45,834 nucleotides of DNA from Opitutia bacterium (GTDB taxonomy: Bacteria; Verrucomicrobiota; Verrucomicrobiia; Opitutales; Opitutaceae): the NCBI GenBank assembly GCA_947467625.1, contig CANIJN010000009.1:1-45834 (forward strand), in the 5' to 3' direction. Below, piece by piece: positions 11,610-34,712 of this stretch. The notes below the pieces were generated by a model. That model did not search any database and had not been told where the DNA came from. It saw nothing but the letters and a program-made list of their open reading frames with translations. Both the position numbers and the translations under genes were made by a program. Positions within the stretch are counted from its first letter, which is position 1. Each line of letters opens with the position of its first letter.

Positions 11610-11808
11610 TCGGGCAACGAAACAGGGGCGTGCGGGGGCGTCACGGCAGAAGTGGGCGGGGAATAAAAAATGCGCGGAAGCCAGACTACGGCGCGCCGGC
11701 GAGCGGTGGGCCATGATTGAGACCGTCCGCGTTGGCGCCGGCCGCGTTGGCGGCAGCGTCACCGGTTTGCATGCAAATGAAATTCGACCACGTGTTGGCG
11801 AGCTTCGG
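11610..11808. other. Left part of a 379-bp divergent intergenic region
   Basis: This lies between the start of the SWIM/SNF2 gene (minus strand) and the inverted-repeat element at 11809-11925. It probably holds the SNF2 promoter, but no convincing -35/-10 pair was identified. The open frame that continues the SNF2 gene upstream through 11762 lacks domain-like sequence and is not accepted as coding. Confidence 0.4.
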
Positions 11809-11925: not shown

Positions 11926-11988
11926 GGCGGACAATTGCGCTGGCCTCTGCGCGGGCTATGGCGTGATGTCCGGAAAACCCCCGTCCCC

Positions 11989-14900: not shown

Positions 14901-15102
14901 TTACAAGGAGCGCATCACGCTCGACGTGAACGCCACCTACCAGCTCACACGCCGCCTCTCCCTCGCCGCCAGCGTGAACAACCTCCTCAACGAGCCGCAG
15001 ACCCTCCTCCGCTACGGTCCCGAAACTCCGGCCTACGCGCGCCAATTCCAAGAGACGGAATATGGCATCCAGCTATCCCTCGGCCTGCGCGGAACATTCT
15101 GA
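11989..15102 (+). CDS. TonB-dependent receptor with N-terminal carboxypeptidase-regulatory-like domain
   Basis: This is a 1037-residue protein from ATG 11989, chosen because it gives a clean signal peptide (FLRLMSLALIIVFAAASVAAAA); an in-frame TTG at 11935 adds only a basic leader. After cleavage comes a carboxypeptidase-D-regulatory-like beta domain (GSITGRVQNVVTGQYLNQA to about residue 100). A TonB-box-like stretch (VKLNAFVVASDKETDA) follows, then the plug (LKFMPGLTADFDNADI, GVSVRGLGG, SKVPTPANPADSLGGSVN) and a ~750-residue barrel ending in GLRGTF with the terminal Phe. Such receptors bring large or scarce substrates through the outer membrane. No SusD gene is adjacent, so the carbohydrate-utilisation type of locus is not supported. 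A decayed paralogue lies 0.6 kb downstream. Confidence 0.92.
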   Translation: MITSFLRLMSLALIIVFAAASVAAAATGSITGRVQNVVTGQYLNQARVTLRGGDHVTFTDNFGTYRLVDVPAGPAVVEFFYTDLDPVVVNLTVPAGGTIERHVDLTSAQRYGRDATAVKLNAFVVASDKETDAQAIATNEQRFAPNLKNVLSTDALGDVLGGSVGEFLKFMPGLTADFDNADIAGVSVRGLGGAMTSITSDGAPATNIWTGATRTVDVRSMALNDISRIELSKVPTPANPADSLGGSVNLVSKSAFERSGRQLRWGVNVVGNHEALAFGRMPHSQRDQLEHTILPGANFDFTWPVTRDFGVVIAGTTTEIYNEQHFARTTWATAGTGGALATASQTNPYLQSFLLIDGPRNISRNSFSAKADWRVMRHGVLSLGHVLNRSTTRIGALQLTFNAGANGTPTPANASPNATWDSSFFRGSLGRATITNNGTAQLANQKSDNTNLTFRYDDGRWRLESGLSRSESRFKRRYWDGGFFYQTIATNSRPIRINFLDIAGDHPGRIEVFDATNQPFDWRDLSNYRPTTTNVADTNTINLAGNGYVNVRRRLDVLPFPAALQIGGAQRIQRLDTNPQAINLTFNGPANATAEPYGMQVYRDMDSHYGYFGIEWMSPVRVFQAYQADPTLYTKTEAQRFAEGNARVDGSEFVRETVRSAYVQADAAFFHNRLRFLSGVRFEHTHDEGQGGLNDADAVWQRAADGSYIRNAAGLRVRKPEAGAASSYAQFLLTRKLRASFSDRTYSGYYPSAHLTFNVTENFVARAAWAKTYGRPNFTDIIPRTVATAADLDDDDPDPVTGRGTLNIRNPTLRPWTADNFDLSFEYYTPQGGLLSAGVFRKDIANFFGDSARIADTALLNELGLDPRYLGWNVLTKFNAGDARITGAEFNARHSLRILGRFGAPFTVFANATYLDLDGGPRAAFTSFVPKSGNWGATFSNQRVSVTARWNYRGMDRRAPQAVFGPEGYEYYKERITLDVNATYQLTRRLSLAASVNNLLNEPQTLLRYGPETPAYARQFQETEYGIQLSLGLRGTF

Positions 15103-18578: not shown

Positions 18579-18647
18579 GTGATCCCCGCCCGAAAATTCA
18601 CGTCGGCGCGCTTGACGGGCCCGCGTCACTCTTCTGCGATCCCCGCA

Positions 18648-21581
18648 ATGCGCGATGCGAGCAAGCCACGAAGCGATGGCGCCGGAGCGGGAAACGGAGG
18701 GAAGCTCTTTCCCTCCGCCGATTGGTGCACGGTGGCGGTGACGCTCGATGTCGCGGCGGGCTGCGTTCACTTCGAATGGTTAGAGGCGGGCACCAAACGG
18801 CACGTAGCGACTGGGCGGATCGTGCCGCAGGCCTCGGCAGAATCCGAGCAAAGTGGTCTCGAGTGCTGGATCTCTCCAGATGCACGCTTCGCGCCGGGCG
18901 CAGAACGGCTGGTCGATGGGTGCAGCAGCCACGCGACCTCCGTGCGCGCCTTGTTGAAACGGTTGCGTGAGCGCTTCCCGCTCGTGAAAGACGGGCTCCA
19001 CCTCGGGCTTCGGTCCGCGATTACGCAAGGCGCGGCCAAGGCGGGAGAGCGGCTGGCGTTGCGCCTCGCTCCGGGCGGCGATGTTTGGAAATGGCTCGGG
19101 CGCGAGGTTGCCCAGTTTGCCCTCGGGTCCCATGGACCCCGCGCGGGGCGCGACGTGGCGGAGCGCGGGCGATACGCCATGACGGTGATCGTCGGCGCCT
19201 TGCTCGGCACGCTGCGCGCACCGCCCCCGCCCCCGGCCCCAGACCCGCTGCTGGATCTTCGCGTGGAGTTCTACCCGCTCAAAGCCGCCGTGACGTTTCG
19301 CTGGACTGCGCCCAGCGCCGCCGCGCCCGTCGCTACGGGAGCGGTGCGGTGCGCGGAAGGAGGCCAGTTTCACTGGACGTTGGAGACGGGCGGGCGCGCC
19401 GAAGAGAAGTCGACCCAGCAACACCGCACGATCATCCTCGATATGCTGAGCCAGTGGTTCAAGCGCTTCGCCACGAACCCCGGCACGTTTGTCAGCGGTT
19501 TTTTCAAACCGCAGCTCGGCAGCGCCGAAGCACACTGGACGCCGCGGCCGCTCCCCCCCGAGGTGAACATTTACGATTGGATCGAGGGCAACCTGCTCGC
19601 GATGGCTGAAGAACGCCGCCTACGCGGGCGACACCCACCCGATCCGTATGCGTTCGAATCGGCGGCCGACGCTGAGCGCTACGAGCGCCGTCTCGCCCGC
19701 AAGGAGGAGAAACGCGCCGAAGAGGCCGCGCGCCGACAGGCCGTGGTCGCGCGCTTCGCCGAAGAACGTCGATTGCGCGAAGCCCGCGAGACCACCACCG
19801 AGGTCCGCCGCGCCCCGCCAGCGGCGCCCGCACCCCGCGCTCCCCAGGTCCCGAAACCGCCGCGCCCCTCCGCCCCACTGCCGCCGGTGTCGGTCGCGAT
19901 CAAGCTCCCGCCGCTCGCGTTTCAGGAAACGGCGTTGCCCCTCGCTGATCTCCGGGATTTTGCGCTGCGCGAGCGCGCGGCGTTGTGGTGGGTGTCCAAC
20001 CAGTCCGACGATCTCCTCTGTCTGCCTCACTGCCGCATTCGGCGACTCGAATATCAGGTGCGCACGGCGCTCCGGGTGCTCGGTCCGTTGCGGGGCCGCG
20101 CACTGCTCTCCGATGAAGTCGGCCTCGGCAAAACCATCGAGGCCGGGCTTGTCCTCAAAGAACTGCTCACGCGCGGCATGGTAAAAAAATTTCTCGTGCT
20201 CACGCTGCCGTCGCTCGTCGATCAGTGGGCCGAGGAATTGAACGACAAGTTTGGGGTCGCGACCGTCACCACGAACCAGCCCGGTGTGCGCGAAGAACCT
20301 GCGCGCCTCTGGCGGGAAAACCCCGGCATCGTCGCGAGTCTCCACACACTCAAGCAACCCGCGCACCTCGGGGTCGCGCGCGAGGTCCACTGGGATCTAC
20401 TGATCGTCGATGAGGCGCACTATCTGCGCAACCGCGACTCGCAGGCGTGGCAGGCCGTGAACGTTCTTCCACGCCAGTTTCTCCTCCTGCTCACGGCCAC
20501 GCCCGTGCAAAACTCCCTCGAGGAACTCTACAACCTCGTCACGTTGCTGATGCCCGGCCAGCTCCCGACACCGCGCGAATTCCGCGCGCGTTTCCTCGAT
20601 CCGAAGCGCCCCCGCCAGCCGCGCGAACCGGAAGAACTGCGCCGCCTGCTCGGCCAGGTAATGATCCGCAACACCCGTGCCAACGCCGGCGTCGATCTGC
20701 CTCCGCGCCACGCCGAGACCGTGGTTTTCGCGCCCGACGAACCCGAACGCACCTTTTGGCAGCAGTGGGAATTCGAATTTCGCGTCGCCCTCACGCGGCT
20801 CAACGCCAGTCAGTCGAGCCTCTGGGGTCGGCTCCTCCTGCGCGCCGCCGGCAGCAGCCCGGCCGCCTGGCGCTCGGCGCTCGCGAAGTTTCCCGACGCC
20901 GTCGCCGCGCGCGCGTGGCGCGACCAGTCGCCGCTCACGGACAGCTGGCGGCGCAAGTGTGCGGCCATCGTGCCGCTCGCCTGCGGTGCCGGCGGCGTAG
21001 TGGTGTTCACCGAATTTCTGGAAACGCAGGCGGCCCTCGCGGAATTTTTGCGCGGCGCCGGCATACCCGTCTTCGTCATCAACGGTGCGACGCCCGCAGC
21101 GACGCGCCAACCGATCACGGAGGAATTTCGCGCGCACGGCGGCGCGCTCGTGCTCACGCATAGCGGCACCGAGGGGCGGAACCTGCAGTTCTGCCACTGT
21201 CTCGCCAATTTCGACCTGCCGTGGAATCCGATGGAAATCGAACAGCGCATCGGTCGCTTGCACCGTCTCGGCCAGCAACACCCCGTGCGAATCTACAATT
21301 TCGTGCAGGCCGGCACGCTCCAAGAGCTCCTCCTCCAGATTCTCCAGGATAAACTCAACCTCTTCGAACTCGTCGTGGGCGAGACCGGCCTCGTGCTCGG
21401 CGAACGGTTCAGTGGCGACGAGTTTGAGGAGGAGGTTTTCCGCCGCTGGCGCGAGAGCGAAGGCCGCGTGGCCGAGGCGCTGGCTGGGCTGGGCGAAGAA
21501 CTCGCGGCGGCGCGCGACCAGTATGCCGAGGTGAAGCAACTCGATGAAACGCTCTTTGCCAAAGACTATGAATCGCTGTGA
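18648..21581 (+). CDS. RapA/HepA-like SNF2-family helicase-type ATPase
   Basis: This is a 977-residue protein from ATG 18648; a GTG at 18579 is also in frame but abuts the repeat. The first ~330 residues form an unassigned region, followed by a charged helical linker (ERRLARKEEKRAEEAARR) and a proline-rich spacer. The motor has motif I DEVGLGKT (489-496), followed by IEAGLVLKELL as in RapA; motif II DEAH (588-591, LLIVDEAHYLRN); motif III LTATPVQN; and motif VI QRIGRLHRLGQQ (866-877). RapA-type enzymes move along DNA and recycle or displace RNA polymerase or other proteins. The next gene starts 34 bases downstream on the same strand and appears to be its partner. It is distinct from the SWIM/SNF2 gene on the other side of the TBDR block, sharing only the motor fold. 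Confidence 0.92.
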   Translation: MRDASKPRSDGAGAGNGGKLFPSADWCTVAVTLDVAAGCVHFEWLEAGTKRHVATGRIVPQASAESEQSGLECWISPDARFAPGAERLVDGCSSHATSVRALLKRLRERFPLVKDGLHLGLRSAITQGAAKAGERLALRLAPGGDVWKWLGREVAQFALGSHGPRAGRDVAERGRYAMTVIVGALLGTLRAPPPPPAPDPLLDLRVEFYPLKAAVTFRWTAPSAAAPVATGAVRCAEGGQFHWTLETGGRAEEKSTQQHRTIILDMLSQWFKRFATNPGTFVSGFFKPQLGSAEAHWTPRPLPPEVNIYDWIEGNLLAMAEERRLRGRHPPDPYAFESAADAERYERRLARKEEKRAEEAARRQAVVARFAEERRLREARETTTEVRRAPPAAPAPRAPQVPKPPRPSAPLPPVSVAIKLPPLAFQETALPLADLRDFALRERAALWWVSNQSDDLLCLPHCRIRRLEYQVRTALRVLGPLRGRALLSDEVGLGKTIEAGLVLKELLTRGMVKKFLVLTLPSLVDQWAEELNDKFGVATVTTNQPGVREEPARLWRENPGIVASLHTLKQPAHLGVAREVHWDLLIVDEAHYLRNRDSQAWQAVNVLPRQFLLLLTATPVQNSLEELYNLVTLLMPGQLPTPREFRARFLDPKRPRQPREPEELRRLLGQVMIRNTRANAGVDLPPRHAETVVFAPDEPERTFWQQWEFEFRVALTRLNASQSSLWGRLLLRAAGSSPAAWRSALAKFPDAVAARAWRDQSPLTDSWRRKCAAIVPLACGAGGVVVFTEFLETQAALAEFLRGAGIPVFVINGATPAATRQPITEEFRAHGGALVLTHSGTEGRNLQFCHCLANFDLPWNPMEIEQRIGRLHRLGQQHPVRIYNFVQAGTLQELLLQILQDKLNLFELVVGETGLVLGERFSGDEFEEEVFRRWRESEGRVAEALAGLGEELAAARDQYAEVKQLDETLFAKDYESL

Positions 21582-21615: not shown

Positions 21616-22620
21616 ATGAAACTCCCGCGTCTGCCCTACGAAACCGGTGTTGTCCTCGATTTCTACGAAGACGGGCTCACCGCGCTCGGCGCCCTGTGCG
21701 CCCGTCCGTGGCACGACCGGCTCGACGTCGTCGCCGAAGGCCGCGCGGCTACACTCTGGAATTCCGCCGGCGCGCTGCACGCTGCCGAGCTGCAGTTTAC
21801 CGCGCCGGATGCCGCGGGGATGCGCGACGCGGCGCGCGAGGTCTTTCCCGGCAGCCCGCTCACCTTTCGCCTCGCCGAAGGGCTGCGGCCGGCCGCATTG
21901 GCGCTCGAACGCGTCGTGCTCGCCGCCACCGGGCCCGCCCGCCCGCCCGACGTAGCCGTGGCGGAAAAACTCTGGCGCGTCCAGTTTGAGGATACGAAGC
22001 GCTGGCGGATCGCGGGACCGTTTACGGCCGATTTTCATGTCTCGCTGGTGGCCTTGGCGCGCTGCGAAATCCAAGCGATCGACCAGCATTGGGCGCTGCG
22101 CCGCGTCGCGATCTCGCTCCCCGACGGCTTCCTCGACGAAGGCCTCGCCCGCGAAATCGGTTTCGCCCGCGCCGCGCCTGAGCCGCCGCCGCTGTCGTGG
22201 CCGACGCCCGATCTCGCGTCCTGGAGCGCTCTCCTGCAAGGCGCTCTGCTCGGCGATCTCGCCGACGAACTCGCGGGCATCCGCGCACGCCAGGAGCAAC
22301 GCCTGCGCCGCGAGCTGGACCGCATCGACGCGTATTTCGAAACTTACGCGGCCGAGCTGAGCGCCCGCGCGAGCCGCAGCGCCACCGTTGCTGCCAAAAC
22401 GGCCGACCGCCTCGCGGCGACGAGAGCGGAGCACGCCCGGCACCGCGCGGACCAAGTCGCCCGACACGAAATCACGGTGCACCCGCACCTCGACGCTTTG
22501 CTGTTGGTGGCCGAGCCGGCGTGGTGCGCCCCGCTCCACGTCGAGCGGGCCCATCGCGCCCCGGAAACCCCCGTCGCCCGCTATGTGCCGCGCGCGCGCC
22601 GGTGGGTGCTGCCGGGATAA
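21616..22620 (+). CDS. Putative partner protein of the RapA-like ATPase
   Basis: This is a 334-residue protein starting at ATG 21616. The N-terminal ~180 residues look mixed alpha/beta (FYEDGLTALGALCARPW, AAELQFTAP, FHVSLVALARCEIQAIDQHW). Residues ~200-283 are long charged helices, probably coiled-coil (QEQRLRRELDRIDAYFET, then DRLAATRAEHARHRADQVARH). They are followed by a strand-rich end (EITVHPHLDALLLVAEPAWC). Helix-then-beta tails of this kind occur in proteins encoded beside RapA-like SNF2 genes in other bacteria; this is recollection, not a search. There is no signal peptide, membrane segment or catalytic motif. The 34-base spacing and common strand suggest one operon, and a physical partner or DNA/RNA-binding adaptor is the simplest guess. 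Function unknown. Confidence 0.8.
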   Translation: MKLPRLPYETGVVLDFYEDGLTALGALCARPWHDRLDVVAEGRAATLWNSAGALHAAELQFTAPDAAGMRDAAREVFPGSPLTFRLAEGLRPAALALERVVLAATGPARPPDVAVAEKLWRVQFEDTKRWRIAGPFTADFHVSLVALARCEIQAIDQHWALRRVAISLPDGFLDEGLAREIGFARAAPEPPPLSWPTPDLASWSALLQGALLGDLADELAGIRARQEQRLRRELDRIDAYFETYAAELSARASRSATVAAKTADRLAATRAEHARHRADQVARHEITVHPHLDALLLVAEPAWCAPLHVERAHRAPETPVARYVPRARRWVLPG

Positions 22621-23112: not shown

Positions 23113-23435
23113 TTCGATTTGGAACACGGCGGAGCGGAGAAATCCGTACCGTTATTGTGTCCGAAATGTGGAGCTGGGCCGGGTCACCGGGCTCCGTTCA
23201 CCATGAAAATGAATACTCCCGCCGCCCCAGTCTTGATTCACCCGCGACGCGCCGTGTAAATCGACCTCGTGGATGCGCCCCAGCCTGTTTCCCTCGCTTG
23301 CTTTACCGAGGACGTGTCATGCGACGAGTCGATGGGGCGAAACGGTTTTCGGGCGCGAGTGGGTGCGCGAGCTGATCGGGGGAACGACGCGGAGGACGTT
23401 TCATTTCCGGGCGTCTCGGCGGCAAGGTGCGACGG
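23113..23435. other. Upstream region of the histidine kinase gene
   Basis: This is 323 bases between the DUF486 fragment and the kinase start. The promoter of the kinase gene should be here, but no clear -35/-10 pair is visible. TATTGTGTCCGA near 23153 resembles a half-site of the palindrome found before the response regulator, with two extra bases; it is too weak to call an operator. Confidence 0.35.
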
Positions 23436-25625
23436 ATGAAACCGTTTCTTCGCGGCCTGCTCCTCATGTCGGCCTGGCTGTGCGCGGGTTTTTATGGCGA
23501 CGTGGCCCGAGCCGCGGAACCGATCATCCGCATCGCCGAGGTCCGCGCGCTGTCGCGGGAAGCGGCGGCGCGTTCGCTGCCGGTCACGGTGCGTGGGGTG
23601 GTGACGTGGCGGTCGGGCCGCGACGAATTTGCCATTCAAGATGCATCGGGCGGCACGTGGGTTCACGTGTTCGTGGCCCGCCAGCAGCAACTTTGGAATG
23701 GCGAGGAGACCATCCTCTCCGAAATCACCGAAGGCATGGAGTTGGAGATCGACGGGGTCGCCCGTGCCGCTGGCTTTGCCCCAGTGATCGCGCCCCAAGC
23801 CATCCGCATCTTGGGCACGAAACCGCTGCCAGCAGCGCGACCCTTGGAGCGCATCGGCTTTCTCAGTGGAGCAGAGGCTGGCCAGCGGATCGAGGCTCAC
23901 GGCGTGGTCCTCGGTTTCCTCCCTCTGGATGTTGGTTGGAAACTGCGGATGCAGGCGGGCGCCGACATTGTGTGGGTGATCGTGTCCAAGGACGTGGTCC
24001 CGGACCCCCAGGCCATTCTGGACGCGGAGGTGAGGGTGCGCGGCGTTGCGGGCTCAGGCTTCAATACGCGCGGCGAATTTCTGAATGCGCGAATCTTGGT
24101 GAGCATTCCTGGGGATTTCGTGGTGGAAAAACCCGCCGCGCCGTCGCCCTTCGGCGCGCCACTCTTGCCGCTGGATCGACTGCGTGCGTTCAACCCCGAG
24201 CCGGAAAAACCGCAGCGCCTGCGTGTCGAGGGCACCGTGACGTTTGCGCTGCCGGGCCAATTTTTCTATCTGCAGGAAAACACTCGCGCGGTGCGGGTGG
24301 AGTCGCGGTCGGACGTCGCCCTCGGCGCAGGGGATCGGGTGGAGGCGGCGGGCTTCGTCGACATGACGCGCCGCGTCGGCGGGCTCGGCGGAGCGGACGT
24401 GCGCAAGATTGGCGTGGGTGATTTGCCCGCGGCGGTGGTGATCACCCCCGAGGAAATCATGGCGCTGAATATCGCCGCTGTGAACAACGGGCAGGCCGCG
24501 CAACCTCACGATTTCGACGGTCATCTCATCCGCTTTCGTGCGCAGTTGCTCGCCGTACAGTCCGCGCCGGACGGAAAGCTGCCCTGGCGCCGACTCACGC
24601 TGAAGCAGGGTAGCATGATCCTCGGAGCCATCCTTCACCAAGGCGACGCGGCGGCGCTGGATGCCATGCAGCCGGACAGCGAGCTGGAGGTGGCTGGTAT
24701 CGTGCAGCTCGAATACGCCGTGGTCGAAGGCGCGCGGGCGTTTCTGCGCCCGGTGCAGCTCGACGTCGTGTTGCGAAACGCGGCGGACGTGACGGTGGTG
24801 CGCGCGCCCTCGTGGTGGACGCCGGCGCGACTGGGGGGCGTGATTGCGATCGGGGCGTTGATGCTCGGCGGGGCTTTGCTTTGGGCCTGGCAATTGCGCC
24901 GGCAGGTGCTCCGAAAGACGCACGATCTCGCGAAGGAAATGGGCGCGCGTCGCGATGCGGCCATTGAGTTCCAAGCCACCTTGCGGGAGCGCAACCGCCT
25001 CGCGGCAAACCTACACGACACGCTGCTGCAGACGATCGGCGGCATCGGTTTCCAGCTCGAAGCCTGCGATGCGGAGGCCGCGGTCCCGAGTCAGGAGGGA
25101 AAGCTGGCCTCCCATCTGGAAGTGGCGCGACGAATGTTGGATCACGCGGCGGGTGAGTTGCGCGGCTCGGTCTGGACGTTGCGCAGTCTGCCGATGCGGG
25201 GTTTGACGCTGCCGCAAGTGTTGGCGTCGCTCGCCGAACGCGCCGGTGCGGGCCACGAGGTACGCATCGAGGTACGCACCGAGGGTGACCTGTCCCGCGT
25301 GCCGGATTTTGTGGCCGGCAATCTGCTGCTGGCGACGCAGGAAGCGCTGCACAATGCGCTCAAACACGGCCAGCCCCGGACCATCATTCTCGAGGCCCGG
25401 CCCGCGGAAAAACCGGGCTGGATCGCCCTGAGTATCCGCGACGACGGCGTGGGCTTTACGCCCGGCACGCAGGCGGGTCCGACCGCAGGACACTTTGGCC
25501 TCGAAGGAATGCGCGAACGCATGGAGCGGCTCGACGGCACGCTGCGCATCGCAAGCGTGCCGGGCGGAGGGACCACGATTTACCTCGAGGTGCCGTTGCG
25601 CGCCTATGATGAGGATGTGGCCTGA
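23436..25625 (+). CDS. Sensor histidine kinase (HisKA_3/NarX-DesK type) with large exported sensor of repeated beta modules
   Basis: This is a 729-residue protein from ATG 23436 (AAGG 9-12 bases upstream; an in-frame GTG at 23427 is the alternative). The signal peptide MKPFLRGLLLMSAWLCAG is followed by ~430 exported residues. These seem to contain four similar beta-rich modules, around VTVRGVVTWRSGRDEFAIQD, RIEAHGVVLGFL, RLRVEGTVTFALPGQFFYLQ and LIRFRAQLLAVQS, resembling OB-like barrels. A transmembrane helix (~466-484, GGVIAIGALMLGGALLWAW) and a cytoplasmic linker follow. The dimerisation/phosphoacceptor box is NRLAANLHDTLLQTIGG with His527, and the HATPase domain has QEALHNALKHG (N box) and DDGVGF (G1), then GLEGMRERM. 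It should autophosphorylate His527 and pass phosphate to Asp59 of the regulator encoded next. The ligand is unknown, probably a substrate or product of the downstream uptake operon. Confidence 0.92.
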   Translation: MKPFLRGLLLMSAWLCAGFYGDVARAAEPIIRIAEVRALSREAAARSLPVTVRGVVTWRSGRDEFAIQDASGGTWVHVFVARQQQLWNGEETILSEITEGMELEIDGVARAAGFAPVIAPQAIRILGTKPLPAARPLERIGFLSGAEAGQRIEAHGVVLGFLPLDVGWKLRMQAGADIVWVIVSKDVVPDPQAILDAEVRVRGVAGSGFNTRGEFLNARILVSIPGDFVVEKPAAPSPFGAPLLPLDRLRAFNPEPEKPQRLRVEGTVTFALPGQFFYLQENTRAVRVESRSDVALGAGDRVEAAGFVDMTRRVGGLGGADVRKIGVGDLPAAVVITPEEIMALNIAAVNNGQAAQPHDFDGHLIRFRAQLLAVQSAPDGKLPWRRLTLKQGSMILGAILHQGDAAALDAMQPDSELEVAGIVQLEYAVVEGARAFLRPVQLDVVLRNAADVTVVRAPSWWTPARLGGVIAIGALMLGGALLWAWQLRRQVLRKTHDLAKEMGARRDAAIEFQATLRERNRLAANLHDTLLQTIGGIGFQLEACDAEAAVPSQEGKLASHLEVARRMLDHAAGELRGSVWTLRSLPMRGLTLPQVLASLAERAGAGHEVRIEVRTEGDLSRVPDFVAGNLLLATQEALHNALKHGQPRTIILEARPAEKPGWIALSIRDDGVGFTPGTQAGPTAGHFGLEGMRERMERLDGTLRIASVPGGGTTIYLEVPLRAYDEDVA

Positions 25626-25633
25626 GGCCGCCC

Positions 25634-25653
25634 TATTGGTCGATCGGACAATA
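25634..25653 (+). promoter_or_regulatory. 20-bp palindromic operator 1, before the response-regulator gene
   Basis: TATTGGTCGATCGGACAATA has outer TATTG/CAATA and central CGATCG symmetry. TACTCC (25677-25682), a possible -10 element, begins 23 bases after it, placing the site centre near -45 of a likely start. It recurs with one base changed at 26349-26368. This is the position expected for an activator such as the NarL-type regulator encoded just downstream. Confidence 0.68.
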
Positions 25654-25708
25654 GCGTCCACCGCGAGCCGTGCGCATACTCCTACCGATAACGACCCACC
25701 TGCCAGTC

Positions 25709-26338
25709 ATGCCGAACATCCCGACGATCCGTCTCCTGCTGGTGGATGACCACCCGGTGCTGCGCGCCGGTTTGGCCAACGTGTTGAACTACGAACCCGG
25801 GATCACAGTGGTCGCCGAAGCCGATGATGGTGCGTCGGCCATCGCGTTGTGGCGCAGGCTCCGTCCGGACGTGATGCTGCTGGATCTCAGCATGGCGGGC
25901 ATGGACGGGATCGAGACGCTGGAGCGGTTGCGCGCCGAGTTTCCCGATGCGCGGGTGCTCATGCTCACCTCCTCCGAGGCTCCGGAGGACGTCCGGCACG
26001 CGCTCAAGGCCGGAGCCGGCGGCTACGTGACCAAGAATGTGCGCCGCGCGGAACTGGTCGCGGCGATCCGCGAGGTATGCGCCGGCGCGCGGGTCATCGG
26101 CGAATCGGTGGCCCGGCAACTCGCGGCGGGCGAGGAGAGCGGAGCTGTTTCCCGACGTGAGCTGGAGGTGTTGGGCTTGGTGCGGCAGGGTTTTACCAAC
26201 GCCGACATCGGCCGGTTGCTCGGCATCTCCGAGCGCACCGCCAAGGCGCACGTCGGCGCGTTGCTCTGCAAATTGCAGGCGGCCGACCGCGCCGAGGCCG
26301 TCGCCCGCGGTTTTGAACGTGGTTTGCTGAAGGTCTGA
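25709..26338 (+). CDS. NarL/LuxR-family response regulator
   Basis: This is a 209-residue protein from ATG 25709. An upstream in-frame GTG at 25670 would begin before the predicted transcription start, so the shorter form is preferred. The receiver domain has the acidic pair in LLLVDDHPVLRAGL, phosphoacceptor Asp59 in VMLLDLSM, the conserved Thr in VLMLTSSE and the Lys in GYVTKNV. The C-terminal ~65 residues form a LuxR-type helix-turn-helix (VSRRELEVLGLVRQGFTN, ADIGRLLGISERTAKAHVGA). It is the obvious partner of the HisKA_3 kinase encoded upstream. The kinase stop and this start are separated by an 83-base promoter region containing palindrome 1. A nearly identical palindrome stands before the next gene, so it probably activates both itself and the TBDR operon. 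Confidence 0.93.
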   Translation: MPNIPTIRLLLVDDHPVLRAGLANVLNYEPGITVVAEADDGASAIALWRRLRPDVMLLDLSMAGMDGIETLERLRAEFPDARVLMLTSSEAPEDVRHALKAGAGGYVTKNVRRAELVAAIREVCAGARVIGESVARQLAAGEESGAVSRRELEVLGLVRQGFTNADIGRLLGISERTAKAHVGALLCKLQAADRAEAVARGFERGLLKV

Positions 26339-26348
26339 ACGCGGGGTC

Positions 26349-26368
26349 TATTGGCCGATCGGACAATA
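26349..26368 (+). promoter_or_regulatory. 20-bp palindromic operator 2, before the TBDR operon
   Basis: TATTGGCCGATCGGACAATA differs from operator 1 at one base and is symmetrical except for one base pair. A possible -10, TACTCT (26391-26396), begins 22 bases after it, almost the same spacing as at operator 1. It is followed by the 98-base leader of the first TBDR gene. It begins 10 bases after the response-regulator stop. Confidence 0.7.
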
Positions 26369-26466
26369 GCGCGCGCTTGCGGCGTGGCTGTACTCTCTGT
26401 TCATCCTATGGCATCGCGGCCCGTCGCTGACGACCACGGGAAGCGCCCCACTCACACCCTACCACC

Positions 26467-29400
26467 ATGAAGCAATCCCTCACTGCGCGCCTTACCGTCG
26501 CGCTCGCCTCCTTCGCCGCTGTCGTTGCTGTCGCCTCGGCGCAGACCGCGCCGGCTCCCGCCCCGAGTTCTGCCGGGAAAGACTCGGCCATCACGCTCTC
26601 GCCTTTCGAGGTGAACACGAGCCGCGACGAGGGCTTCGTCGCCACGAGCGCGCTCGCCGGCGGACGGCTCAACACCGAACTCAAGGACACACCCGTCGCC
26701 TACTCGGTGCTCACGAAGGAATTTCTCGACGCCTTCAACATCACCGATCTCACGCAGGCGATGGAGTGGTCGGTTAACACCACCTACAACCCCGGCAACA
26801 ACGTGGACCAAGGCTTCGGTTTTTCGCCCGCCATTAACATCACGATCCGCGGCGCCGCGCCCGGCGAATCGAACTACCCGATGCGGAATTTTTTCCCGTT
26901 CAACCACAACACCGACAGCTACGCGCTCGACCGCTTCGATTTCGCGCGTGGGCCCAACGCCATTCTCTTTGGCGCCGCGCAGTTCGGCGGCACGCCGGTC
27001 TCGGTCACGAAGCAGGCGCTCACCGGAAAAACGATTCGCCAGACACAGCTGCAGCTCGGGTCGTGGAACAAGTTCCGCGCCACGATCGACGTGAACCAGC
27101 CCATCAATGACAAGGCAGCCGTGCGGGTCGCCGGCATGTGGGAGCGTGGCGACACGTACCGCGAGAACGAGTGGCGCCGGAAGAAGGCCGTCTTCATCGC
27201 GAGTACGTATCACCTTACTCAGAACACCACCCTTCGCGCCGAGGGCGAATACGCCGAGACGCAGCAGAAGACGTTTCCGACGTTTCTCACCGATCAGGTT
27301 TCCGCGTGGGATGGCCGGACAACGTACGCCGGTGCGGTCCTGCCGGGCTCGCCCGAAGTGCCGACCGCCGCGCAGCAGGCCGCCGCCGGGGTTTCCTATG
27401 GCACCAATAACGCGAACCCGCTCTTCGCCCCGCTCTGGGTGTTCGATCCCACGGCGTTCGGCACCGGCCAAGTCATGAATTTCGCGAACGTCCTCCGCAC
27501 GAAAGGAGCGACCGGCAACGGCACCGCCGCCAACCGCAATCTCATCGGCGGCCGCGCGATCACCAGCGCCAGCGTCAACTTCAGCGGGCAGCCCATGATC
27601 GACGGCTTCGAAGTGCCCGCCGGACGTTACGACACGGTCCTGGCCGGCTCGCCAGGATTCCGCATCCCCACGCAGGAAACCACGAATCTCTGGACGAGTA
27701 AAAAACCGACGCAGGCTCAGGTCGCCCGCGACGTTTCCCTCACGCTGAACCACCGCATCGGCAGCGCCCTCTTTTTCGAAATCGCCGGCGACACCAACAA
27801 GGTGACCATCGACGGCAACAACGCGATCAACCGCGGCGCCAACACCGTTTACATCGACATCTCGCAGACGCTCCCCAACGGCGCCCCGAACCCGAACTTC
27901 CGCCAGCCCTACACCGAATTCTGGAGTTACCAGAATCTGCGCGGCTACGAACTGAGCAGCGCGCGCGCCTCGGCCGCCTACATCAAGGAGACCGGGATCG
28001 GCAAACTGCAGTTCGCCCTCGGCGGCGGCGCCAACTATCAGCTCCAGTCAAAACGCAGCTATCTCTACCTGTTGCCGCTGCAAAGCATCGGACCCGACGC
28101 GCGCTATTGGTCGCAGTCGCAGGCTAGCACCGCGCTCTGGCACCGCCTCTATCTCAATCAGGGCGGCCGCGATTTCTATAATACCGAACAAGGTCCGCTC
28201 ACGTTGCGCAATCCGGACGGCACCACGACGACGGTGACTCCGCAGCACATCCTCGACGCCACGCGGAAGGACAACAGCGCGGATAACATCACGAAATTCA
28301 AACACGTGATGGCCGCGGTCAATTTCAGCCTCTTCAAAAACCGGCTCGTGCTCATCGGCGCCGCGCGCCGCGACATCACCAATCTCGAGACGAAGAACAC
28401 GCTCCTCCCCGGCGACTACGCCGCCGGCTGGACCGGCAGCAACATCATCTTCAAACCTGCCGCGCCGAAGGATTGGGCCACACTCACGTTCATCCCGAAA
28501 AACGCCGCCGGGGTCGCGACCGGTCCCGCGCAGCCGGCCGACAACCGGCCGCGTCTCACCGTGCCCGCCACCGCCACGGTCGCCGCCGGCAACATTCTTC
28601 CGCAGCCGCAATACGCCAGCGACCGTTTCCGCGACGACTACAACCCGCCCTCACTCAACGTTGCCTCCAACACCTTCTCGGTGGGCGCCACGTTCAACGC
28701 CACGAAATGGCTCGGCCTGTACAGCAACCTCGCGACTACGTTTAACCCGAATCTCCTCGTGCAGCGCCTCGACAGTTCGCTGCTCCCGCCGTCCGCCTCG
28801 CGCGGCATCGACGCCGGCATCCGTCTGACTCCGCTGGGCGGTCGCGTCTCGATGAGCCTCGGTTGGTTCACTTCGAATCAGAACCTCTCCCCGGTCAACG
28901 CGCCCGGCGGACTCATCGGCAGCTTCAACACGATCTTCAGCACGCCCGTCATCGGCGACCTCAGCCCCGGCGGGCGCAACGCGCGCAACGAAGGTCTCCT
29001 CCCCGTGGTCGTCCGCGACACGCAGACCCAGGAATCCAAGGGCCTCGAATTCGAGACCACCGCCAACCTCACGCCGTCCTGGCGCCTGCTCTTTAATATG
29101 GCCCACACCCGCGGCACCCAAAAGGAAATCGCCCCCGACAGTCGCGCGTTCATCGTCGCGAAGGACGCCGTCGCGCGCCAGATCCTCGCCGATGCCGGCG
29201 TGCTCATTAGCTCGACCAACGTCGCGACGATCAATCCCGCCGTGAACGACCCGACCCGCATCAACCAAGGCGCCGTCAACAACGCCGTGAATGCTTGGAA
29301 TACCCTCCAAACGACCACGATTCCCAACCTCGTCACCGGCGCGCAGACACTCGCGGGCGCCACCGACTACACGTCGAACCTCGGCACCGACTATTCCTTT

Positions 29401-29826
29401 CGCGAGGGGCTGCTCAAGGGGCTCTCCGCCGGCTTCGGCGTCCGCTATCGCGGCAAGATGGTCGTCGGCTACCGCGGCGCCGACACCATCGTGAATCCCG
29501 CCAACCCCGCCACCGCGATCGACGATCCTTCGGTGGATGCCTACACGCCGGTTTATTCGCGGCCGCACACGACCGCCGATGTGCGCTTCGGCTACAACTG
29601 GAAGCTGCGCAATCGCCGCACCGTGAGCTTCAACCTCAACATCCAAAACGTGCTCAATAACACGACCCCGATGTATTTCGTGAATCTCCCCGGCGGCCAG
29701 ACGAGCAACACGATCCTGCGCAACCGCAACGCCGACGTCACCTCGCCCGCAGTTTACACCGTGCCCGCCGGCTTCTCTTATCGCACGCCGATCAACTGGA
29801 CACTGACCGCGCGCCTCGACTTCTAA
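26467..29826 (+). CDS. TonB-dependent receptor, first gene of the regulated operon
   Basis: This is a 1119-residue outer-membrane receptor. The signal peptide MKQSLTARLTVALASFAAVV ends at ASAQ. The mature start is followed by ITLSPFEVNTSRDEGF, the TonB-box-like region common in this group, and the plug (GGRLNTELKDTPVAYSVL, INITIRGAAPGESNYP, DFARGPNAILFGAAQFGG). The large barrel ends in NWTLTARLDF with the terminal Phe. It has no regulatory N-terminal domain, unlike the receptor at 11989. It is preceded by operator 2, and the next receptor starts 18 bases after its stop, so the three genes to 34712 form one probable operon. Both proteins share the LSPFEVNTS-x-D-x-GFVA segment and are tandem paralogues. 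The substrate is unknown. Confidence 0.94.
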   Translation: MKQSLTARLTVALASFAAVVAVASAQTAPAPAPSSAGKDSAITLSPFEVNTSRDEGFVATSALAGGRLNTELKDTPVAYSVLTKEFLDAFNITDLTQAMEWSVNTTYNPGNNVDQGFGFSPAINITIRGAAPGESNYPMRNFFPFNHNTDSYALDRFDFARGPNAILFGAAQFGGTPVSVTKQALTGKTIRQTQLQLGSWNKFRATIDVNQPINDKAAVRVAGMWERGDTYRENEWRRKKAVFIASTYHLTQNTTLRAEGEYAETQQKTFPTFLTDQVSAWDGRTTYAGAVLPGSPEVPTAAQQAAAGVSYGTNNANPLFAPLWVFDPTAFGTGQVMNFANVLRTKGATGNGTAANRNLIGGRAITSASVNFSGQPMIDGFEVPAGRYDTVLAGSPGFRIPTQETTNLWTSKKPTQAQVARDVSLTLNHRIGSALFFEIAGDTNKVTIDGNNAINRGANTVYIDISQTLPNGAPNPNFRQPYTEFWSYQNLRGYELSSARASAAYIKETGIGKLQFALGGGANYQLQSKRSYLYLLPLQSIGPDARYWSQSQASTALWHRLYLNQGGRDFYNTEQGPLTLRNPDGTTTTVTPQHILDATRKDNSADNITKFKHVMAAVNFSLFKNRLVLIGAARRDITNLETKNTLLPGDYAAGWTGSNIIFKPAAPKDWATLTFIPKNAAGVATGPAQPADNRPRLTVPATATVAAGNILPQPQYASDRFRDDYNPPSLNVASNTFSVGATFNATKWLGLYSNLATTFNPNLLVQRLDSSLLPPSASRGIDAGIRLTPLGGRVSMSLGWFTSNQNLSPVNAPGGLIGSFNTIFSTPVIGDLSPGGRNARNEGLLPVVVRDTQTQESKGLEFETTANLTPSWRLLFNMAHTRGTQKEIAPDSRAFIVAKDAVARQILADAGVLISSTNVATINPAVNDPTRINQGAVNNAVNAWNTLQTTTIPNLVTGAQTLAGATDYTSNLGTDYSFREGLLKGLSAGFGVRYRGKMVVGYRGADTIVNPANPATAIDDPSVDAYTPVYSRPHTTADVRFGYNWKLRNRRTVSFNLNIQNVLNNTTPMYFVNLPGGQTSNTILRNRNADVTSPAVYTVPAGFSYRTPINWTLTARLDF

Positions 29827-29844
29827 TAATCATTACTCCCCATC

Positions 29845-32800
29845 GTGAACCACCCTCGTCTGATTGCTCTCTTCTTCGTCGGCCTGCTCGGTGACTCGAC
29901 CGCGACCTTCGCTCAAACCGCGCCCGCTTCGGCTGCCACGACTGAGCCCCTCGTCACGCTCTCCCCCTTCGAGGTGAACACGTCGAAGGACGTCGGCTTC
30001 GTCGCCGCCAGCTCGCTCGCCGGCGGCCGTCTCGCCACCGATCTCGTCGACACGCCGGTGGCCTACTCCGTGCAGACCCGCGAATTCCTCGACGCGCTCA
30101 ACCTGAGCGATCTCAACGAGGCCATCAATTGGACCGTCAGCGCGACGACGACGCCCGACGATGGCGGCGGCCAGCTCTTCGGCGGCACCGGCAGCAGCAC
30201 GATCCGCGGCGTCGGCTCGAATGCCGTCAACCGCAACTTCTTCACCGGCGGTTCCAATCCCTCGACCTACAACCTCGAACGCATGGACTACGCGCGCGGC
30301 CCCAACTCGATCCTCTTCGGCACAGGCACCATCAGTGGCACGTCCAACGCCGTCGTGAAAAGCGCCCGTCTCGGCCGCAACGCCACCGAGGTCCGCGCTG
30401 AGTATGGTTCGTGGGATTCCCTCCGCGCCACCGTCGATGCCAACTACGCGCTGAAAAACAAGATCGCCGCGCGCGTCGTCACCACGTGGCAGGACACCCA
30501 CACGTTTCGCGATTGGGAACGTACGCAGCGCAAAGGCGTCTCGCCCTCGTTCACCGTCGAGCCCACGCGCACCACCCGCGTTTCGCTCATCGGCGACTAT
30601 TACGAACAAAAAGTCACCGCGGGCATGAACGCTCTCAACGACTCCTTCACCGGCTGGGACGGCCGGACCGTTTACTCGGGTCTCCAGTCCGCCACGCTCC
30701 CGAGCCAGTCCGCCTTCGGTGCCTCGCGCGTCGGCACCAATAGCTGGATCGTCTCGCCGGCCTCTGGCCGCGGCTTCGACACCGCGCTCAGCTACACGGG
30801 CATGATGCAGACGACGTTTTTCGGCGGCAACCGCCCCGTCAACGGCCTCACCGCGGCCAGCGGCGGCAACCTCGGCTTCAATGGCGGACCGCTCATCGAC
30901 ACGCCCATGATCACGCCCGGCATCTACGACGCGGCGATCCAAGGCTCCGCATTCCGCGTGCCGGGCCGCTCGTTCACCAACATCGGGCCGAATCCCACCG
31001 CGATTAACCGCTTCCGCGATGCCACGATGTTCATCGACCAGCGCCTCGGCGAATCACTCAACGTCCAGCTCTCCGGCGGCGTTAACAAGCTCTTCAGCTA
31101 CGGCCTCATCGATTACTACACCAACCAGGGCTACCAAAACACGTTCATCGACATCAACCGCTTCCTCCCCGACGGCGCCGCGAACCCGAACGTCCTCCAG
31201 CCCTACAACGAATTCAGCCGCCCCGAGCGCCAGAAAGTCGACACCACCAACAAGGCTCTGCGTTTCGCCGCCGCCTACGCCAAGAGCACTCGCTGGTTCG
31301 ATGTTCGCGCCAATCTCATCGGCGCTCACGAAAACCAGCAGCTCTTCCGCTCCCGCGAATATTACATGATTCCCTTCGACGCTGATCCCCGCGCTTGGGG
31401 CCTCGTCAGCAGCACGCGCACGCAGACGCTGCGTTACCGTTACTATTGGAACCAGCGCGAACGCGAACTCACCGAGATGAAGTCCATCGCCCTCGTCGAT
31501 CCGGCCGCCGGCACTTCCCGCACCTACAATCCGCTCTGGGTTCTCGGCTCCGACCGCAACGACGCCACGGTCTTCAGCGACGCCACCACGAAATATTACC
31601 AAGCCTCCGCCAACGTTTCCTTCTGGCAAAAACGCCTCATCGTCCTCGGCGCCTTCCGCGCCGACCAAGTCGACCGCGGCCAGCGCCTCTTCCTCCGCCC
31701 GCTCGATCATCCTGCAAGCTACGGCGCGCTCACGCGCGACCACTTCATCTACCGCCCAGACGCGCCCGCCGATTATTTCAAATTCACCTACGTCCCGAAG
31801 AATACCGCCGGTGTCGCGACTGGCCCTTCGCAACTCGCACCCGCCACGCGCCCGCGCGACGCGACGACGGGCGTCGCCCTTCCGCAATACGCCAAAGACC
31901 GTTTCCAAGACGATTTCAACCCGCCGCCCACGCAGACGAAAAAACCCACCAAATCCGTCGGCGGCATCTTCAACGTCGGCCGCGGCGTTTCGGTCTGGGC
32001 GAATTTCGCGCAGACCTTCAACCCCACCGATTTCACCAAAACGACGATCGACTACGGCACGCCACCGCCCTCGGTCTCCGAGGGGAAGGACTACGGCCTC
32101 CGCGTCTCCTTCGGTCCAAAGCTCTACGTCACCCTCAGCCGCTACGAGTCGAAGGAGAACGATGCCTCCATCACGCAGCCCTCCGGTTTCAGTAATCTGC
32201 AGGCGCTCATCAACGCCAACGTCGTCGGCGATCTCAGCTCCGACGGCCGCAACCGCCGCGGCCTCGGCGATGTGCCCATCGCGTGGAACGACACGCTCGA
32301 CCGCAAGAGCCGCGGCTACGAACTCGAGACGGTCGCCAATCTCGCTGCTAACTGGCGCCTCACCCTCAACGTCGGCCTCGCTGACGCCTCACAGACCGAT
32401 GCCTACCGCCAGACGCGCGCGTGGGTCGATGCCCAGACGCCTGCCTTCAAACAGATCCTCGACGATTCCGGCGTTCAGCTCGATGCCGGCGGCCTCGCCT
32501 CCGCGAAGCCCGGCGTCACCACCGCAAATTCGCTCGACCTCAACAGCACCGTCAATGCGTGGAACAGTCTTCAAGCCAGTCGCGCGAATTGGGTCAGCGG
32601 CACGCAGCTCCTCAACCGCCTGACGAAATATACCGCCAATGCCTACTCCGATTACCGTTTTAGCCGCGGCAAACTCACCGGCCTTCGCCTCGGCTATGGC
32701 ATGCAATTCCGCGGCCCGCAAGTGATCGGCTACCGCGGCGCCGATACCATCGTGAGTGCGACCAACCCGCTCCTCGCCATCGACGATCCGAAAGTCGATG

Positions 32801-33060
32801 CTTACACGGTCGTCTGGCAAAAAGCCTACGTCCTCGGCACCGCCACCATCGGCTATCCCGTCAAGCTCTTCGGCCGCCAGAAGGTCGATCTGAACCTCTC
32901 GATCACGAATCTCTTCAACTACGACACCCCGCTCTACAACTCGATCGGCCTGCGCGCTGCCAACGGCGACCTCACCTCGTCGGCGCGCGTGAGTTACCCG
33001 CGCTACTTCAGCTACACTACGCCCCGCAGCTTCCGCCTCTCGGCCACGAGGACGTTCTGA
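29845..33060 (+). CDS. TonB-dependent receptor, second gene of the operon
   Basis: This is a 1071-residue protein starting at GTG 29845, which gives the signal peptide NHPRLIALFFVGLLGDSTAT ending at FAQ; no better ATG is available. The mature N-terminus repeats the paralogue's LSPFEVNTSKDVGFVAAS, followed by a plug (GGRLATDLVDTPVAYSVQ, STIRGVGSNAVNRNFF, DYARGPNSILFGTG) and a barrel ending SFRLSATRTF. It is clearly a diverged duplicate of the preceding gene, suggesting paired receptors with different specificity. Its stop TGA overlaps the next start by one base (TGATG), so translation is coupled to the FAD oxidoreductase. No SusD-like lipoprotein gene is present. Confidence 0.94.
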   Translation: MNHPRLIALFFVGLLGDSTATFAQTAPASAATTEPLVTLSPFEVNTSKDVGFVAASSLAGGRLATDLVDTPVAYSVQTREFLDALNLSDLNEAINWTVSATTTPDDGGGQLFGGTGSSTIRGVGSNAVNRNFFTGGSNPSTYNLERMDYARGPNSILFGTGTISGTSNAVVKSARLGRNATEVRAEYGSWDSLRATVDANYALKNKIAARVVTTWQDTHTFRDWERTQRKGVSPSFTVEPTRTTRVSLIGDYYEQKVTAGMNALNDSFTGWDGRTVYSGLQSATLPSQSAFGASRVGTNSWIVSPASGRGFDTALSYTGMMQTTFFGGNRPVNGLTAASGGNLGFNGGPLIDTPMITPGIYDAAIQGSAFRVPGRSFTNIGPNPTAINRFRDATMFIDQRLGESLNVQLSGGVNKLFSYGLIDYYTNQGYQNTFIDINRFLPDGAANPNVLQPYNEFSRPERQKVDTTNKALRFAAAYAKSTRWFDVRANLIGAHENQQLFRSREYYMIPFDADPRAWGLVSSTRTQTLRYRYYWNQRERELTEMKSIALVDPAAGTSRTYNPLWVLGSDRNDATVFSDATTKYYQASANVSFWQKRLIVLGAFRADQVDRGQRLFLRPLDHPASYGALTRDHFIYRPDAPADYFKFTYVPKNTAGVATGPSQLAPATRPRDATTGVALPQYAKDRFQDDFNPPPTQTKKPTKSVGGIFNVGRGVSVWANFAQTFNPTDFTKTTIDYGTPPPSVSEGKDYGLRVSFGPKLYVTLSRYESKENDASITQPSGFSNLQALINANVVGDLSSDGRNRRGLGDVPIAWNDTLDRKSRGYELETVANLAANWRLTLNVGLADASQTDAYRQTRAWVDAQTPAFKQILDDSGVQLDAGGLASAKPGVTTANSLDLNSTVNAWNSLQASRANWVSGTQLLNRLTKYTANAYSDYRFSRGKLTGLRLGYGMQFRGPQVIGYRGADTIVSATNPLLAIDDPKVDAYTVVWQKAYVLGTATIGYPVKLFGRQKVDLNLSITNLFNYDTPLYNSIGLRAANGDLTSSARVSYPRYFSYTTPRSFRLSATRTF

Positions 33061-34712
33061 TGGGCCCCTCGGCGCACCTGACCACGCCACCTAACCGCCG
33101 GGAATTCATCCGCCTCGGCGGCGTAGTCGCGGTGGGTGCGCTGCTGCCGCTTCGTGCTGCCGAACGTCGCGCCCTCACCGCCGATGTCTGCGTCTACGCC
33201 GGCAACGCCGCGGGGATCGCCGCCGCCGTCGCCGCCGCGCGCGAAGGCCGCCGTGTCCTCGTGATCGAGCCCAGCCGTTGGCTCGGCGGGATGACCGGTG
33301 GCGGACTCGTTCATATCGACTGGGGCCGCTCCGAGGCGGCGGGCGGCTCCGCGAAAAAAATCCTCAAAGACGGGCTCAACGATCCGCAATACCGCCGCAT
33401 GTTCGCCGACCTCGCGAAGGAGCACGGCATCGAAATCCTCTACGAACATCGGCTTGCCTCCGTCACAAAAGACGGCGCCACGATCACCTCCCTCGTCCTC
33501 GATCACGCTCCGCCCGACCGCTTCGGCTGTCCCATCGCGGAACCGAAAATCGCCGGCGCCGTCACCGTGAGCGCGCGGATGTTCATCGACTGCTCCTACG
33601 AGGGAGACCTCATGGCCAAGGCCGGCGTGAGCTACACCTACGGTCGCGAGTCGCGCGACCACTACGGCGAATCCCTCGCCGGCGTCCGGCCCCCGCTCGC
33701 CGTTTACGAACTCGATCCCTACGTGAAACCCGGCGATCCGCGCGGTGGGCTCCTGCCGCTGCTCCAGGACCACACCCCCGGCCCCATCGGCAGCGCCGAT
33801 AAACTCACGATGGGCTACGGCTTCCGCTGGAAATTTACGCTCGATAAAAACCAAATCCCCATCGAGCCGCCCGCCGACTACGACCCGTTTACGTTCGAAA
33901 TCTACCGCCGCGCCTTCACGCAAAAAATTAAGATCGAGGGACGCCGCATGAGGAAACTCGGCGTTTATGAGGAGGCCGCCGGTGGCGTCCACACCCCGGA
34001 GACCGGCAACCTCACCCGTAGCCTCGTCGCGCCCACCGTCTATGGCTGCAATGCCGCCTACCCCGACGGCGACTGGCCGACGCGCGCGCGCATCTGGAAA
34101 TTCCATCAGGATTTTATGCGCGGCATGACGCATTTTCTCCGCACCGATCCCTCCGTGCCGGAGAAACTGAAAACCAGAGCGGCCGCGGTCGGCTTCGCGC
34201 CCGGCCAGTTCGACGACACGGCCGGCTGGCCACACCAGCTTTACGTCCGCGAGGCGCGCCGCATGGTGTCGAGTTACGTCGTAACGCAAAAAGACATGGA
34301 GGGAACGACCGACCCCAGCGACTCCATCGGCCTCGCCTCCTACGGCGTTGATGACTGGCCTTACGCGATGCATCCGCTCGCTGGCAAAGTCGCGCTGCAA
34401 GGCGGCGACTACTCGATGCTCTACCTCGAAGAAACGCACCGCGGCATTTACAAAATTCCCTACCGGACAATCACGCCCCATGAGCGTGAGTGCCGCAACA
34501 TGTTCGTTCCGGTGTGCTGCTCTGCGAGCCACATCGCGATGACTTCGATCCGGATGGAGCCCGTGTGGATGACCCTCGCCGAAGCTGCCGGCGTCGCCGC
34601 CTCGATGGCGATCGCCGGCGAACGCGCCGTGCAACGCGTGGACTACGCAACGTTGCGCGCGAAGTTGTCCACGCTCGGGGCGCGGGTTGAGCGGCCGACT
34701 GCGGCCCGATAG
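33060..34712 (+). CDS. Tat-exported FAD-dependent oxidoreductase (FAD_oxidored family)
   Basis: This is a 550-residue protein. The N-terminus carries a twin-arginine signal (NRREFIRLGGVVAVGALLP), so it is exported folded with its cofactor. Then comes an FAD-binding Rossmann start (ADVCVYAGNAAGIAAAVAAA, EGRRVLVIEPSRWLGGMTGG) in which the usual GxGxxG is AGNAAG, as in the FAD-dependent-oxidoreductase (PF12831-like) group. FIDCSYEGDLMAKAGVSY and a C-terminal MTSIRMEPVWMTLAEAAG segment are also typical of that group. Its start overlaps the preceding TBDR stop by one base. Members often lie beside glycan or polyphenol uptake genes, but the substrate here cannot be inferred from sequence. Periplasmic oxidation of what the two receptors import is the simplest reading. 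A short spacer without a clear terminator follows. Confidence 0.88.
   Translation: MGPSAHLTTPPNRREFIRLGGVVAVGALLPLRAAERRALTADVCVYAGNAAGIAAAVAAAREGRRVLVIEPSRWLGGMTGGGLVHIDWGRSEAAGGSAKKILKDGLNDPQYRRMFADLAKEHGIEILYEHRLASVTKDGATITSLVLDHAPPDRFGCPIAEPKIAGAVTVSARMFIDCSYEGDLMAKAGVSYTYGRESRDHYGESLAGVRPPLAVYELDPYVKPGDPRGGLLPLLQDHTPGPIGSADKLTMGYGFRWKFTLDKNQIPIEPPADYDPFTFEIYRRAFTQKIKIEGRRMRKLGVYEEAAGGVHTPETGNLTRSLVAPTVYGCNAAYPDGDWPTRARIWKFHQDFMRGMTHFLRTDPSVPEKLKTRAAAVGFAPGQFDDTAGWPHQLYVREARRMVSSYVVTQKDMEGTTDPSDSIGLASYGVDDWPYAMHPLAGKVALQGGDYSMLYLEETHRGIYKIPYRTITPHERECRNMFVPVCCSASHIAMTSIRMEPVWMTLAEAAGVAASMAIAGERAVQRVDYATLRAKLSTLGARVERPTAAR

Follow-up and report, generated by a model that had tools for sequence, protein, structure and literature searches.

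Why should a response regulator gene stand between two nearly identical palindromes, and which protein would bind them? The question is raised by a 45,834-nt stretch of DNA from an Opitutia bacterium of the family Opitutaceae (GCA_947467625.1, contig CANIJN010000009.1), which we call the window and whose numbering gives our coordinates. In it, a sensor kinase gene is followed by dyad 1, a gene for a NarL-type response regulator (RR), dyad 2, two genes for TonB-dependent receptors (TBDRs) and one for an FAD-dependent oxidoreductase. Dyad 1 (TATTGGTCGATCGGACAATA, 25634-25653) is a candidate operator upstream of the RR gene and dyad 2 (TATTGGCCGATCGGACAATA, 26349-26368) a candidate operator upstream of the uptake operon, both assigned from the sequence and from relatives. 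A sequence check confirmed the original prediction that these 20-mers differ at a single base, and the two-fold symmetry described there holds for 8 of 10 pairs in copy 1 and 9 of 10 in copy 2. The TACTCY hexamers said to follow the dyads at 22-23 nt were also found, as TACTCC (25677-25682) at 23 nt and TACTCT (26391-26396) at 22 nt. When the whole 5.59-Mb genome was searched for the dyad pattern with up to 3 mismatches, only these two places matched, and 100 dinucleotide-preserving shuffles of the window gave zero dyad matches.

All genes of the locus lie on the plus strand. The kinase (732 aa, 23427-25625) carries HisKA_3 and HATPase_c domains by Pfam (PF07730, PF02518), and its annotation also drew on orthologues that share 45-62% identity with it. 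The RR (209 aa, 25709-26338) consists of a receiver and a GerE/LuxR helix-turn-helix (HTH) domain, with Pfam scores of 1.3e-31 for PF00072 and 4.6e-14 for PF00196, and its best solved relative is E. coli NarL (1a04, E 6e-38). Among the orthologues compared, neither the kinase phospho-acceptor H530 nor the receiver aspartate D59 varies. Judged by sequence, the pair has the marks of a NarL/FixJ two-component system, namely a receiver with a GerE HTH, a HisKA_3/HATPase kinase and the conserved His and Asp. Behind dyad 2 lie receptor 1 (1119 aa, 26467-29826; Plug domain by Pfam and NCBIfam), receptor 2 (1071 aa, 29845-33060; Pfam and blastp), which is 37% identical to receptor 1 by blastp, and the oxidoreductase (33060-34712; PF12831 by Pfam, with a Tat-like signal in its sequence), whose start overlaps the receptor 2 stop. 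With a gap of 18 nt or an overlap between neighbours, these genes read as a single operon. Pfam annotation thus agrees that the two copies precede a NarL-type regulator and a TBDR-TBDR-FAD-oxidoreductase operon.

Substrate-induced TonB-dependent uptake is a feature shared with FecI/FecR-FecA and SusCD, but the parts that define those systems are missing here, as had been proposed for this locus. FecIR-FecA is recognized by a TBDR signalling domain together with an ECF sigma/anti-sigma pair; neither receptor matched the STN signalling domain in Pfam or NCBIfam, both having Plug alone, and no sigma or anti-sigma match occurred among the neighbouring proteins scanned. SusCD is recognized by a SusC TBDR paired with a SusD lipoprotein, and no SusD family match was obtained in the uptake operon with Pfam or NCBIfam.

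Elsewhere in the window, positions 11935-15102 encode a full TBDR with CarboxypepD_reg, upstream of a short plug ORF, and a 523-aa ORF with a TonB receptor plug at 15690-17261 is about half the usual receptor length and possibly truncated. Two SNF2-type helicases (7656-11762 and 18579-21581) resemble DpdE/ZorD and DrmD/BrxH of defence systems; no recognised defence partner set accompanies either one, and 21616-22620, adjoining the second helicase, had no match in Pfam, NCBIfam or PADLOC.

Searches of whole genomes and genome contigs, mostly metagenome assemblies, yielded eleven RR relatives with 67-99% identity. The nearest locus, L036, is 97-99% identical and is therefore not independent. The kinase stays adjacent to the RR in the relatives and is 45-98% identical where full length. 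In ten of the eleven (L036-L044 and G095), a similarly built dyad lies in the interval that separates the kinase stop from the RR start, in altered form in L039, L041 and G095. The dyad after the RR is clear in seven (L036, L037, L038, L040, L042, L044 and G107). The L039 copy is degenerate, and those of L041 and G095 are altered. No clear dyad lies directly upstream of the RR in G014 (RR 81% identical), and neither dyad is present in L045, where the RR is 60% identical. What follows dyad 2 differs from locus to locus: L038 and L044 have a TBDR and sulfatases there, L037 has a Gfo/Idh/MocA oxidoreductase, L040 a PATR autotransporter, L042 a beta-helix protein, and G107 a TBDR with a sodium:solute symporter. 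Kinase, RR and dyad are thus constant across these loci and the downstream genes vary.

Scanning related genomes for the palindrome, as the original prediction had advised, showed that it tracks orthologues of the RR and is not widespread before unrelated genes. Among 150 genomes of the family, a dyad with 0-1 mismatch occurs in 3 of the 7 that have an RR orthologue and in 0 of the 143 that do not (Fisher p = 6e-5); allowing up to 2 mismatches, the counts are 4 of 7 and 3 of 143. Where a genome lacks the orthologue, sites with 3 mismatches were counted as background. Where the orthologue is present but a close match is not, an altered dyad mostly occupies the equivalent position, and G004 (L044), which lies outside the 150-genome sample, has both a 1-mismatch site and an RR orthologue. 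More distant RRs (39-48% identical) had no shared upstream and downstream dyad above the mismatched-pair null, whose maximum was 27. One such pair, L020, scored 29 and was rejected; it is GC-rich and one of its copies is only weakly symmetric. Since this comparison showed no shared dyad for RRs below about 50% identity, we claim generality only for this clade and the paralogues closest to it.

These comparisons bear on whether the pair of dyads arose by chance, or by a recent duplication of a promoter fragment, and has no regulatory meaning. The copies are indeed almost identical and only 0.7 kb apart. However, such pairs are kept in relatives whose RRs are only 67-83% identical, and in L040 and L042 lineage-specific changes are common to both copies, so that we give this explanation next to no credence.

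The DNA-recognition helix of the RR and the dyad differ together. The helix SERTAKAHVG pairs with TTGGCCGATCGG (also written TTGGCCGATCGGACAA), SERTARAHLG of L040 with three sites of the TTGGCGGATCCGCCAA type (dyad form GGCGGATCCGCC), TEHTAKAHVA of L042 with TTAGCCGATCGGCTAA-type sites, also three in number, and SEWTAKSHVQ of L039, L041 and G095 with a site that has a TCCGATCGGA core. A paralogous RR subfamily (52-55% identical) with the helix SEHTVKAHVK pairs with GCTCKTTCGGGY, and its own dyad pair, TATNGCTCKTTCGGGYRATW, flanks its RR in G003 and G095. Only 7 of the 150 genomes contain the TATNGCTCKTTCGGGYRATW motif, and most of the copies examined have a -10 at +20 or +21. This association covers five or six helix types, compared without phylogenetic correction. 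Loci of the paralogous subfamily are L075 (G003), L076 (G095), L118 (G006) and L119 (G165); in G165 one TATNGCTCKTTCGGGYRATW copy precedes a sulfatase gene.

The dyads could instead be operators of a regulator encoded elsewhere, for example a LacI/GalR- or TetR-type repressor, with the RR gene a mere target. Palindromes before TBDR genes elsewhere in bacteria are ascribed to such regulators or to Fur (PMC1790865). Nevertheless, the features shared by the loci that contain the site are the kinase and the RR. The joint variation of helix and dyad, and the separate dyad pair of the paralogue, also argue against a third-party regulator, and a site just upstream of a -10 without a -35 is typical of an activator. 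We consider a foreign regulator improbable and favour the RR itself as the protein that would bind the dyads.

How would a bound RR act on transcription? Taking each distance from the dyad in turn, we scored the likeness to a -10 element, first in 31 sites and then in a strict set of 17 whose dyad score is at least 14. In the 31-site set the best three-position window was +20 to +22, with a mean of 2.28 against a shuffle maximum of -1.49. The same window gave a mean of 2.63 in the strict set, where the maximum in 500 shuffles was -0.59 and the opposite side of the dyad scored at most -1.36. Fifteen of the 17 strict-set sites have a -10-like element at +20 to +22; one of the two misses, a G014 site between divergent genes, fits in the reversed orientation, with GATACT at +21 facing the GH3 gene. 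The -10 at the expected spacing is poor at L042-RR, L066-RR, L077-dn and G014-x3, and weak at L040-dn, L040-PATR and G014-x4. In L103 (G177) a dyad at 2160-2179 has TAGACT 42 nt downstream of it, double the usual distance of 21 nt; this may be an activator site two helical turns further off, or chance.

Because a hexamer 20-22 nt past the dyad is kept across relatives, the copy 1 hexamer is better read as CATACT (25675-25680, plus strand), the predicted -10 of the RR promoter. For the uptake operon the predicted -10, on the same spacing, is TACTCT (26391-26396, plus strand), with TGTACT (26389-26394) as an alternative. Transcription is predicted to start at about 25687 for the RR gene and about 26403 for the uptake operon. 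The -10 position places the dyad centre about 31-32 bp upstream of the -10, at a distance that is equal for RR and target promoters, and no consensus -35 was found at the dyad promoters. As read from sequence, this is the build of a class II-type activator promoter, with the activator site just upstream of the -10 and no -35. At ogt1052, a single 7-2-7 site centred at -44.5, 32 bp ahead of the -10, is enough for activation by E. coli NarL alone (PMC9314961). Of all our observations, this analogous geometry hints most strongly at an activator role for the dyad.

The RR might also bind the dyads yet act as a repressor, either of its own gene or of the operon. This has a precedent, in that NarL represses frdA from sites near the transcription start (PMC4549865). 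Here, however, the dyad would be centred near -44 with no -35, as in NarL-activated promoters, and the distance is the same at the RR and target promoters. Such negative autoregulation is, in our judgement, quite improbable.

The promoter spacing also speaks against the dyads being RNA elements, that is, terminator or processing hairpins behind the kinase and RR genes. Each dyad does lie 8-10 nt past a stop codon, that of the kinase or of the RR, and a modest hairpin is possible for copy 2 (-16 kcal/mol, z -1.28). But the fold of copy 1 does not use the palindrome and is no better than that of shuffles (z 0.07). Neither dyad is followed by a run of T, a -10 is conserved at a fixed distance downstream, and one of the G014 sites is placed between two divergent genes, not behind a gene. 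An RNA role is therefore very unlikely, and activation by the RR remains the reading that we prefer. The original proposal of dedicated sites for this regulator draws support, at the level of sequence, from the co-occurrence with the RR and from the activator-like distance to the -10.

What might the kinase sense? Its layout is a signal peptide, a sensor region (residues 32-460, window 23520-24806), one transmembrane helix at about 466-488 and a HisKA_3 core. The sensor region of about 430 residues had no good match to a Pfam model. Modelled alone, it forms four successive five-stranded units (pLDDT 84, pTM 0.72). Structure comparison returned OB folds, the best with Z 12.8 and an rmsd of 2.7 over 100 residues; it covers mainly units 1-2, and units 3-4 are assigned by the same strand pattern. 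The periplasmic sensor is thus predicted to be four tandem OB folds, an unusual sensor architecture. The OB folds that matched belong to nucleic-acid-binding proteins and tRNA synthetases, and we took the matches as evidence of fold alone, with no bearing on function or ligand.

Four sites with a correctly spaced -10 occur in the relative G014, before GH3, GH31 and two TBDR genes. This refines the original prediction, in that the self-contained circuit would be private in the present genome but has further candidate sites in this relative. Positions of G014 sites are 12784-12803 in L072, 2104-2123 in L099 and 2415-2434 in L101; the GH3 gene is divergent from the kinase, and the sites together would form a small glycan regulon. 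Linkage to glycan enzymes consists of sulfatases in L038 and L044 and of GH3 and GH31 in G014, the window operon itself having only the FAD oxidoreductase. Since GH3, GH31 and sulfatases are linked to the sites in relatives, glycans are the likely ligand class, and this analogy suggests that the kinase ligand is a glycan.

Comparative sequence provides the sites, their genome specificity, their co-occurrence with the RR, the -10 spacing and the helix-linked dyad differences; from it we infer that the RR physically binds the dyads, that it activates rather than represses, and which class the ligand belongs to. It is very probable that the dyads are RR operators and that the OB-fold kinase senses an imported compound, upon which the phosphorylated RR (RR~P) activates both its own gene and the uptake operon. 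The compound, most likely a glycan fragment, would reach the periplasm and be sensed by the inner-membrane kinase through its tandem OB folds, and the kinase would then phosphorylate the NarL-type RR. An RR~P dimer would bind each 20-bp dyad at about position -44, upstream of a -10 without a -35, and recruit RNA polymerase. The RR gene, by positive feedback, and the TBDR-TBDR-FAD-oxidoreductase operon would be switched on together, resulting in more uptake and more regulator.

Parts of such a circuit have parallels. E. coli NarX/NarL, at NarL-only promoters such as ogt, is alike in its HisKA_3 kinase, NarL/FixJ regulator and inverted-repeat site, but has another half-site sequence and another sensor domain and responds to nitrate rather than serving outer-membrane uptake; the candidate operators here are, in addition, local, with one on either side of the regulator gene. 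In Pseudomonas aeruginosa, PfeS/PfeR detects its substrate once this has been imported into the periplasm and then induces PfeA, the TonB-dependent receptor of the system (PMC8001512). The substrate there is ferric enterobactin, whereas here the regulator is NarL-type and the targets in relatives are glycan-linked. PfeR is an OmpR-type regulator. In the UhpB/UhpA-UhpT system of E. coli, a NarL-family regulator activates an adjacent uptake gene, but that gene encodes an inner-membrane sugar-phosphate antiporter, the activation site lies further upstream and the signal passes via UhpC. CUT loci of Xanthomonas and freshwater Verrucomicrobia combine TBDRs with glycoside hydrolases, transporters and a regulator, according to portions of two reports (PMC1790865, PMC5615132). 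LacI-type and Fur control are named for Xanthomonas in that portion of the former, and the corresponding portion of the latter describes no regulator or operator for the verrucomicrobial TBDR clusters. Two-component control of TBDRs and NarL-type activation from such a distance are already known. The literature that we searched contained nothing on this operator, on NarL-type control of verrucomicrobial TBDRs or on a tandem OB sensor, nor was two-component control of any Verrucomicrobiota TBDR found in it. The operator, the sensor and the system of this circuit appear to be undescribed.

The helix-operator pairs form a natural series for studying the DNA specificity of the NarL family, and operator searches could link receptors of unknown substrate to co-regulated enzymes. 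TonB-dependent receptors are numerous in Verrucomicrobiota, and for a set of them we now propose an operator, a regulator and a sensor that can be tested. More tentatively, Opitutaceae and related Verrucomicrobiota may possess portable uptake circuits, each with its own tandem-OB-fold kinase, NarL-type RR and private operator pair, in which helix and operator would change together and the genes for uptake or degradation would be swapped between genomes behind a fixed promoter cassette.
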